A stretch of DNA of 64,000 bases, taken from NCBI RefSeq assembly GCF_021654035.1, contig NZ_JAJPDW010000005.1, positions 62,001 through 126,000 on the forward strand, given 5' to 3'. Below the pieces are notes generated by a model. It was not told where the DNA came from. It saw nothing but the letters and a program-made list of their open reading frames with translations, and did no database searches. Origin of the DNA: Microbacterium aurantiacum. GTDB lineage: Bacteria; Actinomycetota; Actinomycetes; Actinomycetales; Microbacteriaceae. The position numbers were made by a program, and so were the translations under genes. How positions within the stretch are numbered: position 1 is the first letter of the stretch; each line of letters begins with the position of its first letter. This document shows positions 54,408 to 61,114 of this stretch, piece by piece.

Positions 54408-55079
54408 ATGAACAGTCTCACCGACAAGCTCGGGGTCGATATCGACCCCGAGCTTCTGTCGCTGGCTCTCACGCATCGTTCCTGGGCGTACGAGAACGGG
54501 CAGGGCCCGCACAACGAACGTCTCGAGTTCCTGGGCGATGCCGTTCTCGGACAAGCCGTCACGGTGCTGCTGTACACCCGGCACCCCGAGCTCGACGAGG
54601 GTGCTCTCGCCAAGAGGCGCGCCGCGGTCGTGTCCACGCTCGCGCTGGCGGAGGTGGCCCGGAGTATCGGCCTGGGTGCCCATGTGAAGCTCGGGCGGGG
54701 CGAGAACCAGACCGGCGGTCGGGATAAAGACTCGATCCTGGCGGACACGACCGAGGCGATCATCGGCGCGACCTACCTGTCCGTCGGACCGGACGCCGCC
54801 ACCGCGCTCGTCCTCCGCCTGCTGGAGCCCCTCCTGGCCGACCCCGAGCGCTACGGCGCCGCCGTGGACCCGAAGACGGCCCTTCAAGAGGCCGCGGCAC
54901 GCCTCGGTTCCATCGCGCCGGTGTACAGCGTGACCGCCGAAGGCCCCGATCACGATCGCACCTTCACCGCGGTCGTCGACGTGGCCGGCATCCGCTCGGA
55001 GGGGATCGGTCGCAGCAAGAAGCATGCCGAGATGGCGGCCGCGCTGACGGCGTGGAGGGAGCTGTCCGGTCGTGCCTGA
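54408..55079 (+). CDS. rnc: Ribonuclease III
   Basis: 223 aa dsRNA endonuclease for rRNA and mRNA processing. The signature NERLEFLGDAVLG and the catalytic DTTEAIIGATYL are intact. The C-terminal dsRNA-binding domain runs from about residue 155 (DPKTALQEAAARLG ... GIGRSKKHAEMAAA). It overlaps mutM by 8 bp. Confidence 0.97.
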   Translation: MNSLTDKLGVDIDPELLSLALTHRSWAYENGQGPHNERLEFLGDAVLGQAVTVLLYTRHPELDEGALAKRRAAVVSTLALAEVARSIGLGAHVKLGRGENQTGGRDKDSILADTTEAIIGATYLSVGPDAATALVLRLLEPLLADPERYGAAVDPKTALQEAAARLGSIAPVYSVTAEGPDHDRTFTAVVDVAGIRSEGIGRSKKHAEMAAALTAWRELSGRA

Positions 55080-55989
55080 GCTTCCCGAAGTGGAAGTCGT
55101 ACGCTCGGGGCTCGCACCCGCTCTGGTGGATGCGACGGTCTCCGCGGTCACGGTGCACGATGCACGCGCACTCACCCGACACCCGGGATCCGTCGACGAC
55201 TTCGAGCAGAGCCTTCGGGGCGCGCATGTCGTCGCCGTGTGCCGACGCGGAAAGTTCCTGTGGATGCCGTTCACTCCCACGGACGGCTCCGACACCGCCC
55301 GTGCGGTCGTGGCGCACCTCGGGATGAGCGGCCAGATGCTGCTTCGTGCGTCCGGTGCGCCCGTCGAGCGCCATGAGCGGATTCGTCTCGACATCGACCA
55401 CCCCGACCACGGCGCTCTCGCCGTGGTCTTCGCGGACCAGCGCACGTTCGGATCACTCGCGCTCGATCCACTCCTGCCGACGACGGATGCCGCGCCCGGA
55501 GGTTTCGGCGCTGATGACGCCACCGTTCCCGCGCAGGTCGCGCACATCGCCCGCGATCCTCTCGATCCGGCGCTCGACGAGACACGCCTCCGAACCCTGT
55601 GGGCCCGCAAGCGCTCGGCGATCAAACGGGTGCTGCTCGATCAGACCGTCATCAGCGGTGTCGGGAACATCTACGCCGATGAGGCGCTCTGGGGTGCTCG
55701 CATCCATCCGGAGACCCCCGCCGACGCACTGTCGGCGCGCCACGCGACCCGGCTCCTCGCCGAGGTCCGATCTGTACTCGACAAGGCTCTGGCGGAGGGG
55801 GGGACGAGTTTCGATGCGCAGTACGTCAACGTCAACGGGCAGGCCGGCTACTTCGCCCATTCGCTGCACGCCTACGGCCGCGGCGGCGCGCCCTGTCACC
55901 GCTGCGGCCGGCCCATCACGAGGGTGTCGTTCATGAACCGCTCGAGCCACTTCTGTCCGCGCTGTCAGCGGATGCCTCGCACCCGCTGA
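55072..55989 (+). CDS. mutM: Formamidopyrimidine-DNA glycosylase
   Basis: 305 aa base-excision repair enzyme for 8-oxoguanine. It has the N-terminal PELPEVEVV (catalytic Pro and Glu after Met removal), the helix-two-turn-helix region VISGVGNIYADEALWGARIHP, and a C-terminal zinc finger with four cysteines (CHRC ... CPRC). GTG 55072 overlaps rnc. Confidence 0.95.
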   Translation: MPELPEVEVVRSGLAPALVDATVSAVTVHDARALTRHPGSVDDFEQSLRGAHVVAVCRRGKFLWMPFTPTDGSDTARAVVAHLGMSGQMLLRASGAPVERHERIRLDIDHPDHGALAVVFADQRTFGSLALDPLLPTTDAAPGGFGADDATVPAQVAHIARDPLDPALDETRLRTLWARKRSAIKRVLLDQTVISGVGNIYADEALWGARIHPETPADALSARHATRLLAEVRSVLDKALAEGGTSFDAQYVNVNGQAGYFAHSLHAYGRGGAPCHRCGRPITRVSFMNRSSHFCPRCQRMPRTR

Positions 55990-56001: not shown

Positions 56002-57096
56002 TCACGCGCTTCGCGGCAGCACCTTCTTCCAGGCGCCGCCGTACGCGATCGGAACGAAGCCCATCGCCTCGTTGATGTCGAGCATGGGGCGGTTCTCCTC
56101 GGCGTTGTAGGTCAGGACGCGCGGCGACATCGGAGCGTGCTCACTCCAGGCGAGCAGACCCGCGCATTTGACGAGGAGGCCCAGCCGGTGTCCCCGGTGC
56201 TCGCGCAGGACGAGGGTGTCCTCCTGGTGCGTCGCCTCCGCGCGGTTCCGGCCGATCACGAGCTCGTTGAACGCGCACAGCTTTCCCGTCGCGCGGTGCT
56301 GTGCGGCCGTCACAAGCATGTGCTGGCCTCCGCGCAGATAGCGCCCGTCGTGCTCGGCGATGCGTGCGGCGTCCCAGCGTTCCTCGTCCATCTCGAGATC
56401 GGCGGAGGGGGCGTCGGTTGACATCCGGGATTTCATCCAGGCGTACTGCTCGGCGAACGCGGGGGGAGTGGGGAGCGTCCAGTGGACGACGCGATACCCC
56501 TCGGCGGCGCGCTCGGCTTCCGCGAGCAGTTGCCGGATGCGCGTCAGATCTCCGTCGAGCGCGAGGGCGCTGTTGCGTTCGACCTGTTCGAGCCGGTATC
56601 CGTGGGCGAGGTAGAAGCGAGCGGCATGATCGAGCGGAACGCGGCCGAACCCGGTCGGTGCGTCCAGCTGCTCCCCGGTCGCCGCGGGATGCGCGGCCCA
56701 CGACTGCAGGATGTGTCGCCCCTGGGTGGCGGCTTCGCGCTCGATCATCGTCAGCGACGCGGAGCCGATACCCTGGCCCCACGCTTCTCGGAGCAGCTCG
56801 ATGAGCCACATGGCGGAGTTCGAGCCCTCCTCGAGCGGGAGGTCGAGCCCGACGCGACCGACGATGCTGCCGTTCCATGCGGCTGTCCAGACGCGTCGGA
56901 GCTCGAACGCGCTCGGTGCGTAGTGCGGCAGGAGCTCTTCCGAGGTCATCGACTCGTCGTCGTGACCGTTGATCTCACGGTAGACGCGATTGCGGACGTC
57001 GACCATCGCACGGAAGTCGCGGGCCTCGGGGGCAGTGGTGTCGTCGGGGATGAGGAGCTCCCGCAGCACGAGGCCGGCGGGTGGGGCGGTGTTCAT
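56002..57096 (-). CDS. Tandem GNAT-family acetyltransferase
   Basis: 364 aa with two GNAT-like halves. The first includes GRVGLDLPLEEGSNSAMWLIELL and REAWGQGIGSASLTMIE (acetyl-CoA loop type). The second includes LVLREHRGHRLGLLVKCAGL, the classical R/Q-x-x-G-x-G/A-like motif, and TYNAEENRPMLDINEAMGFV. The substrate is unknown; mycothiol synthase (MshD) has a similar double-GNAT plan but I see no specific match. ATG 57096 has GGAAGAAGAA upstream; GTG 57132 is also possible and overlaps the small ORF upstream as GTGA. Confidence 0.82.
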   Translation of the reverse strand: MNTAPPAGLVLRELLIPDDTTAPEARDFRAMVDVRNRVYREINGHDDESMTSEELLPHYAPSAFELRRVWTAAWNGSIVGRVGLDLPLEEGSNSAMWLIELLREAWGQGIGSASLTMIEREAATQGRHILQSWAAHPAATGEQLDAPTGFGRVPLDHAARFYLAHGYRLEQVERNSALALDGDLTRIRQLLAEAERAAEGYRVVHWTLPTPPAFAEQYAWMKSRMSTDAPSADLEMDEERWDAARIAEHDGRYLRGGQHMLVTAAQHRATGKLCAFNELVIGRNRAEATHQEDTLVLREHRGHRLGLLVKCAGLLAWSEHAPMSPRVLTYNAEENRPMLDINEAMGFVPIAYGGAWKKVLPRSA

Positions 57097-57128: not shown

Positions 57129-57245
57129 TCACAGGCGCGGTACGAGCAGGAGCAGACGCAGCGCCCGCTGCTCGCGATGCGAGCGGAGGTCATCGGACAG
57201 GTGCGGGCGCGCGTGATCGCGGCGCTCGTCGAGCGTGGGATACAT
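57129..57245 (-). CDS. Small ORF (38 aa) coupled to the GNAT gene
   Basis: 38 codons: a charged first half (MYPTLDERRDHARPHLSDD) and a hydrophobic, Leu-rich end (LRLLLLVPRL). GGAAAG lies about 7 nt before the ATG. Its TGA overlaps GTG 57132, the longer GNAT start, by 4 bp, suggesting translational coupling. Not recognised. Confidence 0.45.
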   Translation of the reverse strand: MYPTLDERRDHARPHLSDDLRSHREQRALRLLLLVPRL

Positions 57246-57249
57246 GGCG

Positions 57250-57377
57250 GAACTTTCCGTCGGAGATGAGGGTGCGGTGTGCCGGGCACGCGGAGAAGGT
57301 GCCGGGAGAGGACGCAGGGGATGGCGCGTGCACGCGATTTCCCCCGGGGTGCTACCGGGGAGAGGGCAGCGCCGAGA
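57250..57377. other. Non-coding stretch between two small ORFs
   Basis: Part of the 535-bp region without a large gene (57097-57631). It holds a small hairpin (CCCCGG at 57342-57347 with CCGGGG at 57355-57360) and nothing else I can name. The plus-strand frames crossing it show no homology or ribosome site. Confidence 0.4.
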
Positions 57378-57449
57378 TCAGGCGGATGCCGTCGGGCGAC
57401 GACGAAGGGTCGTCGTGGCGGCGATGCCCGTGCGGATGATGATCATCAT
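57378..57449 (-). CDS. Candidate leader peptide ORF upstream of the GNAT operon
   Basis: 23 codons starting MMIIIRTGIAATTTLRRR, ending PTASA. It has the strongest ribosome site in the region: AAAGGAGGT, 4 nt before the first ATG and 7 nt before the second. It is rich in Ile (3 in a row), Thr (3 in a row) and Arg (3 in a row). A promoter lies upstream. It could be an attenuator or an antibiotic-sensing leader for the acetyltransferase; this is inference. Confidence 0.5.
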   Translation of the reverse strand: MMIIIRTGIAATTTLRRRPTASA

Positions 57450-57483
57450 GACGACCTCCTTTCGTGTGCCGGTGCGATGAGGA

Positions 57484-57513
57484 ACGCTAGCGCACAAATG
57501 CACAGGTTCGCAA
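57484..57513 (-). promoter_or_regulatory. Promoter of the leader ORF/GNAT operon
   Basis: -35 TTGCGA (57508-57513), 18-bp spacer, -10 TAGCGT (57484-57489) on the minus strand. The predicted 5' UTR of about 28 nt carries the AAAGGAGGT site. Confidence 0.5.
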
Positions 57514-57631: not shown

Positions 57632-60600
57632 ATGCACTTGAAGAGCCTGACGCTCAAGGGCTTCAAGTCCTTCGCGCAGCCGACGACGTTCGCGCTCGAG
57701 CCCGGTGTCACCTGCATCGTCGGCCCGAACGGCTCAGGGAAATCCAATGTCGTGGACGCTCTGGCCTGGGTGATGGGGGAGCAGGGCGCGAAGACCCTCC
57801 GCGGCGGGAAGATGGAGGACGTCATCTTCGCCGGGACCTCCACGCGGGGCCCGCTCGGCCGCGCAGAGGTCCAGCTCACCATCGACAACGGCGACGGGGC
57901 CCTTCCGATCGAATATTCCGAGGTCACCATCAGCCGGACGCTGTTCCGCAACGGGAGCAGCGAGTACGCGATCAACGGACAGAGCTGCCGACTTCTCGAC
58001 GTGCAGGAGCTCCTGAGCGATTCCGGCTTGGGCAGGGAGATGCACGTCATCGTCGGTCAGGGGCGCCTGGACAGCGTGCTGCAGGCCACCCCCGAGGATC
58101 GCCGTGGCTTCATCGAGGAGGCGGCCGGCATCCTCAAGCACCGTCGCCGCAAAGAGAAGACGCTGCGGAAGCTCGACGCGATGGAGGCGAACCTCACGCG
58201 GGTGAACGACCTCGCCGGTGAGCTCCGCCGACAGCTGAAGCCGCTCGGTCGCCAGGCCGATGTCGCCCGCGAAGCGGCCGGGATCGCGGCCGAGGTACGC
58301 GATGCCAAGGCGCGGCTCATGGCGGACGATCTCCTACGGGTCCGGACCGTCCTCGCCGACGCGGTGCGCGGCGAGCAGGAGACGCATGCCGAGCGCGCGG
58401 GACTGCAGGCTCGGCTGGACGACATCCGCGGGCGGATCGAGCAGCTGGAGTCGGATCAGCGTTCCGAGGCCGTGGACGAGGCCCGACGGGTCGCGTCGGG
58501 TCTGGAGCGTGTGCAGGAACGGACACGAGGCCTGTACGCGCTGGTGGGGCAGAGGCTCACGCTCCTCGGATCGGCGGAGGACGACGAACGCGTCGAGGTC
58601 GCCACAGTCTCTCCTCAGATGATCGACGCCGCGCGCGCGGAGATCGCCGAGGTCACCGACGGGCTGCAAGGAGCGCAGGATGCCGCCGAGGCCGCGGCGC
58701 GCGATGTCACCCGAGCACGTGCCGAACTGGACGCGCTCGACGCCGACATCGCCGCGCAGAGCGCGCTGGTCTCGTCGCATGACATGCGCCTCACGGCGCT
58801 GCGCGGAACCGCGGAGGCGGCGGATTCCGCCTTGGCCGCGGTGCGTGCCGCGGTCGAGCGCCAGCAGCGAGCCCTCGATGCCGCTCATGCCCGCCGGACG
58901 GAGGCCGAGGAGGCGTTGGCGGACCTGGGCCCCGCTCCTGATCCGCAGGCGGACGCGGCCGATGCGCAGGCCGCCTACGAGCGTGCCCAACGCGACGCGT
59001 CGTCGGCGGAGGCGCAGGTCGCCGATCTGCGCGAGCGGCTCCACGCCGCCGAGCGCGAGCGGGACGCCCTGATGGCGCAGGTCACCGCGCTCGGGCGGGC
59101 GCTCGAGGGCCGGAGTGCCGCGGCAGGCCTGCTCGACGGAGATCGTGCCGGCGTCCGCGGTCTCGTGAGCGACGCGGTGCAGGTCGAGTTCGGATGGGAG
59201 GCGGCGATCGCCGCCGCGCTCGGCTCCTATGCGGAGGGCGTGGTCGCCGATGCGGATCGGGCGTTCGCCCTGGCCGACGCCGCGCGAGCAGAGGATCTCG
59301 GACGGGTCGACATCGTGTTCGCGGACGCCGTCGCCCACGACCGCCCCGCACCGCCGGACGGGCTGCGCTCGGCGATCGAGGTCGTGGACGGTCCCGCCGG
59401 TGTGCGAGCGCTGCTCGCGTCGGTCTTCCTCGCCGAGGACCTCGATCAGGCCCGCGCGGCGGCGACGGCGCTGTCGACCGGCCGGATCGTGACGCGGTCC
59501 GGCGAGGTGCTCACCCCCTTCTCCCTCCGATCCGGTGCCGGGGGATCCCGTTCGCGCTTGGAGCTGACTGCCGAGCGCGACGCCGCGGCGATCCGCCGAG
59601 ACGAGATCGTGGTCTTCGCCGACGCGCTGCGCGAGGCCCTCCGTGAGGCCCAGGATGCGCTCCGCGGCGCGAAGTCCCGCGCGAACACCGCCCTGACGGC
59701 CCTTCGCGATCACGACGCGGCTGCGGCGGCGCGCGCCGAGAAGTCCAACCGGGCGACCGTGCGTCACGAGGCCGCCGTCGCGGAGTGCGATCGTCTGGCG
59801 GCCGGTCTCGCCCAGGCCTCCGCCGCGGTCGCCGAGGCCGAGGACGCGGCGCGCGTGGCTCATGAGCAGTTCGCGACCGCGCAGGAGGCGCCGCGTCCGA
59901 TCCTCGATGCGTCGTCCCGAGACGACGTGCTCGGCTCGCTCGAGACGGCGCGGGACGTCGAGATGCGTGCCCGCCTGGAGGTGGAGACGCTTCGCGAACG
60001 CATCCGTGCCGCCGAGGCCCGGGTGGCGGGGCTCGAGCGCCAGCGCGAACGCGAGCGCGCCGCCGCCGAGGAGAGCGCCCGTCGCGCGGTCATCCGGCGC
60101 GCGCAGCGGGAGAAGGCCTCTGCGGTCGCCGAGCGGTTGCCTCCCCTGATCGATGCGATCGACCGCTCACTCGCCGATGCCCGTGCCGCGCTTCTCGCCG
60201 CTCAGACCGAGCGTGCCGCGGTGACGGAGGAGCTCGCCACTCTGCGCAGGAACGAGACCGAGGTCCGCGAGCGGCTGTCGCGGTTGACGGAGAACGTCCA
60301 CGCGCTGGAGCTGCGGATCCATGAGAATCGCCTGCACGCGACGGCGCTCCGGGAGCGGGCCGCCTCCGAGCTCGGCCTGGAGGAGGATATTCTCCTGAAG
60401 GAATACGGACCGGGATTCGGGGGTGCGGATGGGACCGGGGCGTCCTCTTTCGACCGGGGCGCGGAGCAGAAACGCCTTCAGGCCGCCGAGCGCAAGCTCG
60501 CGCAGTTGGGTCGGGTGAACCCGCTCGCTCTCGAGGAGTTCGCCGCCCTCGAGCAGCGACACGCCTTCCTCACCGAGCAGCTGGCCGATCTGACCCAGAC

Positions 60601-61114
60601 GCGCAAGGACCTGCTCACCATCATCGAGGAGCTCGACGAGCGGATGCAGGTCATCTTCCTCGCGGCGTTCGAAGACACGCGCGTGGCGTTCGGCGAAGTC
60701 TTCCCGATCCTGTTCCCCGGAGGGACGGGCTCCATCGCGCTCACCGATCCGGACTCTCCGTTGACCACGGGCATCGAGGTGTCCGTCCGGCCGGTCGGGA
60801 AGAAGATCGAGCGCCTCTCCCTGCTGTCGGGCGGCGAACGCTCCCTGGCCGCCGTGGCGCTGCTCACCGCGATCTTCAAGGCGCGTCCGAGCCCCTTCTA
60901 CATCCTCGACGAGGTTGAGGCGGCGCTCGACGACGCGAACCTGGGACGCCTGCTCGGTGTCTTCGAGCAGCTCCGGTCCTCGAGCCAGCTGATCGTGATC
61001 ACCCACCAGAAGCGGACGATGGAGATCGCCGACGCGCTCTACGGGGTCTCGATGCGACAGGACGGCGTCTCGGCCGTCGTCGGCCAGCGTGTTCGCGAGT
61101 CCGCGCCGGCCTGA
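57632..61114 (+). CDS. smc: Chromosome segregation protein SMC
   Basis: 1160 aa. The N-terminal ATPase half has Walker A in VGPNGSGKSNVVDALAWVMGE. Long coiled coils (~170-490 and ~650-960) are separated by a hinge domain around residues 495-640 (GVRGLVSDAVQVEFGWEAAI onward). The C-terminal half has the signature LSGGERSLAAVALLTAIF and Walker B FYILDEVEAALDDANL. With ScpA/ScpB (not in this window) it compacts and segregates the chromosome. Full length, no disruption seen. Confidence 0.97.
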   Translation: MHLKSLTLKGFKSFAQPTTFALEPGVTCIVGPNGSGKSNVVDALAWVMGEQGAKTLRGGKMEDVIFAGTSTRGPLGRAEVQLTIDNGDGALPIEYSEVTISRTLFRNGSSEYAINGQSCRLLDVQELLSDSGLGREMHVIVGQGRLDSVLQATPEDRRGFIEEAAGILKHRRRKEKTLRKLDAMEANLTRVNDLAGELRRQLKPLGRQADVAREAAGIAAEVRDAKARLMADDLLRVRTVLADAVRGEQETHAERAGLQARLDDIRGRIEQLESDQRSEAVDEARRVASGLERVQERTRGLYALVGQRLTLLGSAEDDERVEVATVSPQMIDAARAEIAEVTDGLQGAQDAAEAAARDVTRARAELDALDADIAAQSALVSSHDMRLTALRGTAEAADSALAAVRAAVERQQRALDAAHARRTEAEEALADLGPAPDPQADAADAQAAYERAQRDASSAEAQVADLRERLHAAERERDALMAQVTALGRALEGRSAAAGLLDGDRAGVRGLVSDAVQVEFGWEAAIAAALGSYAEGVVADADRAFALADAARAEDLGRVDIVFADAVAHDRPAPPDGLRSAIEVVDGPAGVRALLASVFLAEDLDQARAAATALSTGRIVTRSGEVLTPFSLRSGAGGSRSRLELTAERDAAAIRRDEIVVFADALREALREAQDALRGAKSRANTALTALRDHDAAAAARAEKSNRATVRHEAAVAECDRLAAGLAQASAAVAEAEDAARVAHEQFATAQEAPRPILDASSRDDVLGSLETARDVEMRARLEVETLRERIRAAEARVAGLERQRERERAAAEESARRAVIRRAQREKASAVAERLPPLIDAIDRSLADARAALLAAQTERAAVTEELATLRRNETEVRERLSRLTENVHALELRIHENRLHATALRERAASELGLEEDILLKEYGPGFGGADGTGASSFDRGAEQKRLQAAERKLAQLGRVNPLALEEFAALEQRHAFLTEQLADLTQTRKDLLTIIEELDERMQVIFLAAFEDTRVAFGEVFPILFPGGTGSIALTDPDSPLTTGIEVSVRPVGKKIERLSLLSGGERSLAAVALLTAIFKARPSPFYILDEVEAALDDANLGRLLGVFEQLRSSSQLIVITHQKRTMEIADALYGVSMRQDGVSAVVGQRVRESAPA

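Follow-up and report, generated by a model that had tools for sequence, protein, structure and literature searches.

What do two small open reading frames do between a promoter and the gene for a tandem-domain GNAT acetyltransferase? The question is raised by a 64,000-nucleotide stretch of the Microbacterium aurantiacum genome (hereafter the window), in which the promoter, a first small frame (uORF1), a second (ORF2) and the tandem GNAT gene all lie on the minus strand, flanked by mutM and a divergent smc, as read from the window sequence and its list of ORFs. Every element named in a preliminary description of this locus (promoter, Shine-Dalgarno sequence, uORF1, hairpin, ORF2 and GNAT) is present in the window sequence; coordinates refer to the minus strand unless stated. 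The -35 element TTGCGA (57508..57513) and the -10 element TAGCGT (57484..57489) are separated by an 18-nt spacer, and such a promoter would place the transcription start about 25-30 nt before uORF1. A near-perfect Shine-Dalgarno sequence (SD), GAAAGGAGGT (57454..57463), precedes uORF1 (57378..57449), a 23-codon frame with an ATGATG start and the sequence MMIIIRTGIAATTTLRRRPTASA, recognised from the ORF list and from the frame that it keeps relative to a helix, P1. ORF2 (57129..57245; 38 codons) is assigned by its position and its C-terminal likeness to the ORF2 of relatives. The frame at 57632..61114 on the plus strand, which we take to be smc by recognition of its protein (MHLKSLTLKGFKSFA...), serves as a synteny marker, and the plus-strand product at 55072-55989 is presumably mutM, named in the same way.

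The acetyltransferase gene itself runs from an ATG to the end of its frame (56002..57096), an assignment based on Pfam, PDB, a structure model and Foldseek. The longer GNAT start described earlier, the GTG at 57132, does share the sequence GTGA with the ORF2 stop, but translation probably begins instead at the ATG at 57096, behind GGAAGAAG (57108-57101), because the ORF2 of relatives stops before the GNAT ATG is reached, and a strong hairpin usually separates the two.

Comparison across the genus identifies the window's two small ORFs as a shortened copy of a leader that is kept throughout Microbacterium. A GNAT match was found in 188 of 198 genomes of this genus, and at 106 loci, for the most part those with the best scores, about 1 kb ahead of GNAT was surveyed, four more at contig ends having been dropped. 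The SD and uORF1 occur in 104 of the 106, of which 102 were recognised by script and two (L112 and L113) have a variant SD; the remaining two (L101 and L128) lack uORF1 and are second copies directly behind another GNAT gene. A divergent smc start lies less than 1 kb away in 99 of the 106 loci, and all 99 of these have uORF1. As a check on bias towards close relatives, the best locus was taken from each of 30 genomes with weaker GNAT matches. Among these, 25 are smc-linked and all 25 carry uORF1 (24 by script, L174 by eye), and in the five loci without smc, four of which are second copies, the script detected no uORF1. Altogether, uORF1 is found with a strong SD ahead of it at all 124 smc-linked Microbacterium GNAT loci examined. 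The small ORFs, sought upstream of GNAT in the Microbacteriaceae as the preliminary description had proposed, are therefore not confined to the species, since they are conserved with GNAT far beyond it, throughout Microbacterium.

Other genera of the Microbacteriaceae yielded a GNAT match in 47 genomes, and in two scans of 29 of these loci, at the GNAT locus only, the leader was detected in none, though 22 adjoin smc. Its origin is sharp: Microbacterium has it throughout, the sister genera examined lack it at the corresponding smc-linked locus, and the leader thus appears, as far as sampled, to have arisen at genus level, at a gene position that already existed. Named GNAT relatives are mostly Microbacterium, and 11 of 12 named loci have the SD and uORF, the twelfth being a 31% relative from Planotetraspora. 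A metagenome-assembled contig labelled Propionicimonas (L036) encodes a 62% GNAT with a Microbacterium-like SD and uORF, and is probably misbinned. Further GNAT copies lie nearby on the same strand in G012, G034, G036, G038, G057, G061, G069 and G089, and the smc-distal copies examined (G012, G034, G036, G038, G057 and L101 of G100) are without the leader.

A promoter ending 33-40 nt before uORF1 is found in all 102 script-recognised loci, mostly as TTGACG or TTGACA, 17-18 nt and TAnnnT. The -35 element at this place in relatives is TTGACG in 78 loci and TTGACA in 19, the spacer is 18 nt in 94, and the commonest -10 element is TAGCGT, in 43. Shortly before the -35 element, 22 of the 102 loci (e.g. 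L002, L003 and L009) have a CTGCGA element, a possible regulator site.

A covariance model, R1, spanning the SD to the post-stop region, matched 30 of 59 genomes at E <= 0.01; several of these searched genomes also supplied rows of the model, and more distant clades were missed by it. Because it matches once per genome, with 29 of the 30 matches placed at the GNAT leader by coordinates or contig (that of G044 is on another contig), there is no general leader family within the reach of R1. A strict DNA pattern matched five of 99 genomes, in each case at the GNAT leader. A second pattern matched none of 299, a result that carries no information, because the window's own genome, G045 and G066 were among those searched and have leaders outside this pattern. 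A second leader copy in the own genome was considered and rejected, the sole other DNA match (L032) being 27 bp inside an apparent transporter gene, a chance match. Rfam searches of 1 kb of the window and eight loci gave nothing above gathering thresholds (ceN89 at 19.4 of 48 bits, sX15 at 27.5 of 55).

The helix P1 joins the SD and linker of uORF1 to codons further on in the same uORF, and its two arms change together across clades. Compensatory pairs between clades include GGTCCCCG:CGGGGACC, GGTTACCG:CGGTAACC, GGTCACCG:CGGTGACC, GGTCGCC:GGCGACC, GGTTCCC:GGGAACC and GATCGCA:TGCGATC, and the window has GGTCGTC:GACGACC. There the 5′ arm (57450..57456) consists of the end of the SD and the linker, and the 3′ arm (57408..57414) of Thr codons 12-14 of uORF1; both rest on covariation and appear in the minimum free energy and centroid folds of the window. 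The paired codons in other loci are mostly about 16-28. A second arm with CTCCTTC at its end, pairing with AAGGAG, is found in many loci, and we take this sequence to imitate the 16S anti-SD.

Several comparisons support this pairing, those by linker permutation and by alignment being uncorrected for kinship of the genomes. When the 7-nt linker was matched against own and foreign uORFs, always at its best place, the match to the own uORF averaged 0.797, against 0.567 +/- 0.016 on permutation, and none of 2000 permutations scored as high (for one locus, L056, the script read the linker wrongly). A perfect 7-nt match occurs in 30 of 102 own uORFs, compared with 1.3% of foreign pairings. In 83 of the 102 loci the SD duplex is equalled by at most five of 100 shuffled uORFs; that of the window is equalled by eight. 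In an alignment of 38 rows, comprising the window and 37 of the 102 loci chosen as alignable (39 were first picked, of which L071 and L114 were dropped), pairing holds in 96.7% of the cells and falls to 44-60% on sliding by 1-3 columns and to 91.1% on shuffling of columns. Two-sided changes occur in six of 12 pairs and covariation is 0.187, against 0.083; not one of 500 shuffles scored as high. The 7-nt helix is weak in nine of the 102 loci. These compensatory changes, spread across about 100 loci, argue that P1 is under selection.

Other foldings fared differently. Predicted SD accessibility was 0.198, against 0.213 with shuffled uORF bodies (p 0.10), which is not a significant drop, and the folding of the window leader is no stronger than that of its shuffles (z 0.14). 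Leader regions were also compared by permutation, with the second P1 arm picked by its complementarity to the own SD, which biases the 1:2 line of this test. Pairing of that arm with the post-stop region was unsupported (2:3, z 0.3), so that a classical 1:2/3:4 switch was not seen; the 3:4 pairing gave z -2.2, a value at least as low being reached in four of 200 permutations. Nor did the ribosome binding site of ORF2 pair with parts of the leader better than permuted sequences in 76 loci, although an unvarying pairing would escape this test. Both a classical 1:2/2:3/3:4 attenuator and sequestration of the ORF2 ribosome binding site are therefore unsupported by the permutation tests. Between the post-stop and pre-ORF2 regions there is a pairing signal (z -5.5) that may be composition. 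A possible competing hairpin, CGACGAC/GTCGTCG, formed by Thr and Arg codons (57397..57415), was noticed by eye in the window only, and is absent from its minimum free energy and centroid folds.

P1 also bears on whether uORF1 is read. Its second arm lies in one reading phase in 89 of the 93 loci with a good helix, across 14 different spacings from the ATG, and uORF1 is for this reason very probably translated. Third-position excess is slight (0.270/0.265/0.295 over the three codon positions in a 39-aa set; 0.119/0.191/0.183 in a 37-aa MIR set). Since it is nearly absent, the frame and the RNA seem to be kept and the peptide hardly. A downstream stretch such as GTxSFGA nevertheless recurs in the uORF1 of many clades, because it complements the SD and linker of its own uORF.

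Behind uORF1 in the window follows a C-rich, G-poor, rut-like stretch that extends to ORF2 (57246..57377), with 62 C and 32 G in 132 nt, an excess reached by 0.18% of the window's 132-nt stretches on both strands. C exceeds G from uORF1 to ORF2 (or to GNAT where ORF2 was uncalled) in all 102 loci, and the excess in the best 78 nt is at least 0.25 in 63 of them, compared with 1.3% of random, mostly coding, window segments. Rho loading sites are C-rich, G-poor RNA, and by its composition the gap behind the uORF1 stop may be a Rho loading region. A short GC hairpin lies just past the stop in the window (about 57340..57361); none of the other uORF1 stops compared is followed by this very sequence. 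A GGAGnACTCyGyCC motif is found just past the stop in many relatives and is absent in the window.

From its position and C-terminal likeness, we take ORF2 of the window to be an abridged version of a small Arg-rich protein that is encoded ahead of GNAT and varies in length from 38 to about 95 aa. The script called ORF2 in 77 of 91 loci, though the calls at L110 and L113 look spurious and at least L088 (= G008) was missed. With one long ORF2 as query, 10 of 24 genomes gave one match each, all at the GNAT locus (that of G017 was placed by the contig that also holds its R1 leader match). The 95-aa ORF2 has a clear coding signature, with differences of 0.116, 0.070 and 0.340 at codon positions 1-3. 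Pfam gave no match for ORF2 of the window, and for that of L002 only RICTOR_N, far below the cut-off.

An APQ(R/H) motif recurs in ORF2 (e.g. L002, L009 and L030), encoded by GCG CCG CAG in 45 of the 46 ORF2s that have it; for comparison, usage at GNAT starts is 28% for GCG and 44% for CCG. In a clade of 31 loci, a nearly invariant upstream sequence, GTGCTGCGGCAC, is almost complementary to these codons. The APQ codons look like a second RNA element, and a permutation test of their region against that of GTGCTGCGGCAC gave only z -1.2. Between ORF2 and GNAT, 66 of 74 loci have a hairpin with a stem run of at least 8 (mean z -3.2), and the window is without it. This hairpin, which may be a terminator or a stability element, is very strong and GC, and the examples read (e.g. 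L002, L024 and L072) have no T run.

A translation-responsive leader controlling the acetyltransferase, as already suggested in the preliminary description, is the best explanation for a locus in which uORF1 is conserved, in frame with P1 and followed by a C-rich gap. More specifically, we consider it about evenly balanced whether the leader is a translation-sensing attenuator like that of Sinorhizobium meliloti duf1127_1, evolved separately in Actinobacteria. A ribosome and P1 would compete for the SD of uORF1, each excluding the other. With fast ribosome loading, uORF1 would be translated and P1 would stay open, and the translated codons and the C-rich stretch past the stop would, by analogy, be exposed to Rho, stopping transcription before ORF2 and GNAT. 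If initiation were impaired, a ribosome would be parked at the start; if ribosomes were scarce, P1 would close over the codons. In both situations Rho loading would fail and ORF2-GNAT would be transcribed, so that the acetyltransferase operon would be on when translation is in trouble. Comparison of the loci supports the promoter, SD, in-frame uORF, P1 and C-rich gap; the mutual exclusion of P1 and ribosome, the access of Rho and the rise of GNAT are steps that we infer beyond it. Drug-induced stalling could possibly feed the same switch.

A more far-reaching reading, which we put forward only tentatively, is that the uORF senses free ribosomes, its SD being bound either in trans by the 30S subunit or in cis by an anti-SD mimic (e.g. 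GACCGTCTCCTTC, in many loci), and that this arrangement evolved separately in Actinobacteria and Alphaproteobacteria. The SD of the uORF is presumably complementary to the 16S 3′ end over 10 to 11 nt. Competition in cis and trans for this SD, if true, would read ribosome availability directly, and a free-ribosome sensor would then control small Arg-rich proteins and, in Microbacterium, an acetyltransferase. Little is known about how bacteria read the supply of free ribosomes rather than one given drug or amino acid, and an SD contested between the ribosome and its uORF's own codons would be a minimal device for doing so.

Literature searches found no paper on this Microbacterium locus, and to that extent the earlier remark that no such case had been described stands; the logic itself, though, appeared in print in 2025, for the duf1127_1 leader of S. 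meliloti (PMC12218461). There, reporter mutants support a predicted hairpin between ribosome binding site and codons inside a uORF with a C-rich stretch behind it, loss of the uORF start codon de-represses, and the leader answers to tetracycline and, in the authors' model, to ribosome shortage (PMC12218461). The two systems share a short uORF near the 5′ end whose ribosome binding site pairs with its own codons (a prediction in S. meliloti), C in excess of G just past the uORF stop, the gene for a small Arg-rich protein next, and Rho-dependent attenuation, which is presumed there and inferred here (PMC12218461). They differ in that S. meliloti is an alphaproteobacterium, that codons 3-10 are paired there and mostly about 16-28 in Microbacterium, and that the S. 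meliloti gene encodes a DUF1127 protein, whereas ORF2 is not DUF1127 by Pfam and is followed in Microbacterium by a GNAT (PMC12218461). The evidence also differs, consisting of reporter mutants in S. meliloti and of covariation across about 100 loci here (PMC12218461). A device proposed earlier from reporters in one alphaproteobacterial gene would now be found in another phylum (PMC12218461).

Other leaders are similar in part. The GNAT family also includes YjhQ of Escherichia coli. The toiL-topAI-yjhQ operon has the same order of uORF, small protein and next gene, and it senses translation stress with the involvement of Rho, as we propose for Microbacterium; toiL pairs with the ribosome binding site of the next gene, whereas uORF1 pairs with its own (PMC12121999). 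Actinobacterial amino-acid attenuators likewise have leader peptides, some of them without obvious terminators, but differ in that the Microbacterium leader has no conserved run of regulatory codons and its gene is not amino-acid biosynthetic (PMC1262725). The whiB7 leaders are also actinobacterial uORFs, and they answer to several ribosome inhibitors (PMC12121999). They precede a different gene, unlike the Microbacterium leader. We know of no helix between a whiB7 uORF and its own ribosome binding site.

The leader offers a clue linking the tandem GNAT to translation stress. Pfam marks only the first domain (PF00583, 8.4e-9), sequence comparison with PDB matches 2wpw (3.9e-15), and the structure model (pLDDT 93.1) finds 2wpx_A by Foldseek (E 9.7e-26). 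Like the window protein, ORF14 of the clavulanic acid cluster (2wpw/2wpx), its best relative of solved structure, has two GNAT domains, and the fold is the same (TM 0.73/0.80, 24% identity); no biosynthetic cluster was noticed around the window's GNAT. The next relatives in fold are MAB_4324 of Mycobacterium abscessus and, lower in the ranking, mycothiol synthase. NCBIfam assigned GNAT to no resistance family (ArsN1a reached 12.6 bits against a cut-off of 170). That GNAT acetylates a translation inhibitor is a reasonable guess.

Rival readings turn largely on the uORF1 peptides, of which the 102 loci provide 99 distinct ones, counted without regard to kinship. An early xTG motif occurs in 55 of the 99, against seven expected by residue shuffling, and the Thr of 57 early TG pairs is encoded by all four codons (ACC 33, ACT 12, ACA 9, ACG 3). 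Such an enriched motif with synonymous variation would suit drug-specific arrest of the nascent peptide at this motif, of the erm/cat type, freeing the operon so that GNAT detoxifies the drug. The inducers of erm- and cat-type leaders are translation inhibitors, several of which are inactivated by GNATs, and this too speaks for drug arrest. We nevertheless consider it unlikely: the motif is missing in 44 of the 99 peptides, no covarying pairing between the ORF2 ribosome binding site and leader parts was seen in 76 loci, NCBIfam places GNAT in no resistance family, and the leader is absent ahead of GNAT homologues from other genera. Improbable, too, is a constitutive damper, in which P1 senses no signal and does no more than limit ribosome load on uORF1 or protect the mRNA 5′ end. 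P1 is indeed the only element for which strong covariation is shown, and SD accessibility is ordinary for such GC-rich RNA, but a frame in register with P1, a C-rich gap and, in most relatives, a hairpin between ORF2 and GNAT exceed what a damper needs.

The runs of III, TTT and RRR in the window had been read as signs of attenuation by Ile, Thr or Arg supply, and the window sequence alone would favour this. Among the 99 peptides, III and RRR occur once each, in the window itself, and TTT nine times; no run of regulatory codons is conserved, and the downstream gene is not amino-acid biosynthetic. The window's Thr codons, ACG ACG ACC, are moreover the P1 arm, and its Arg codons, CGT CGT CGC, can pair with them (by eye), so that RNA pairing explains the Thr and Arg runs. 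Amino-acid attenuation is thus refuted by comparison of the peptides, and we reject it as almost certainly wrong. That uORF1 encodes a functional small protein and limits its own translation through P1 would account for its kept frame and length (29-44 codons in 100 of 102 loci) and for the TG motif in many peptides, but is very improbable, as the sequences differ almost completely between clades and show little third-position excess. At one locus, L059 (G197), the uORF1 stop has been lost and the frame continues into ORF2, giving 179 codons.
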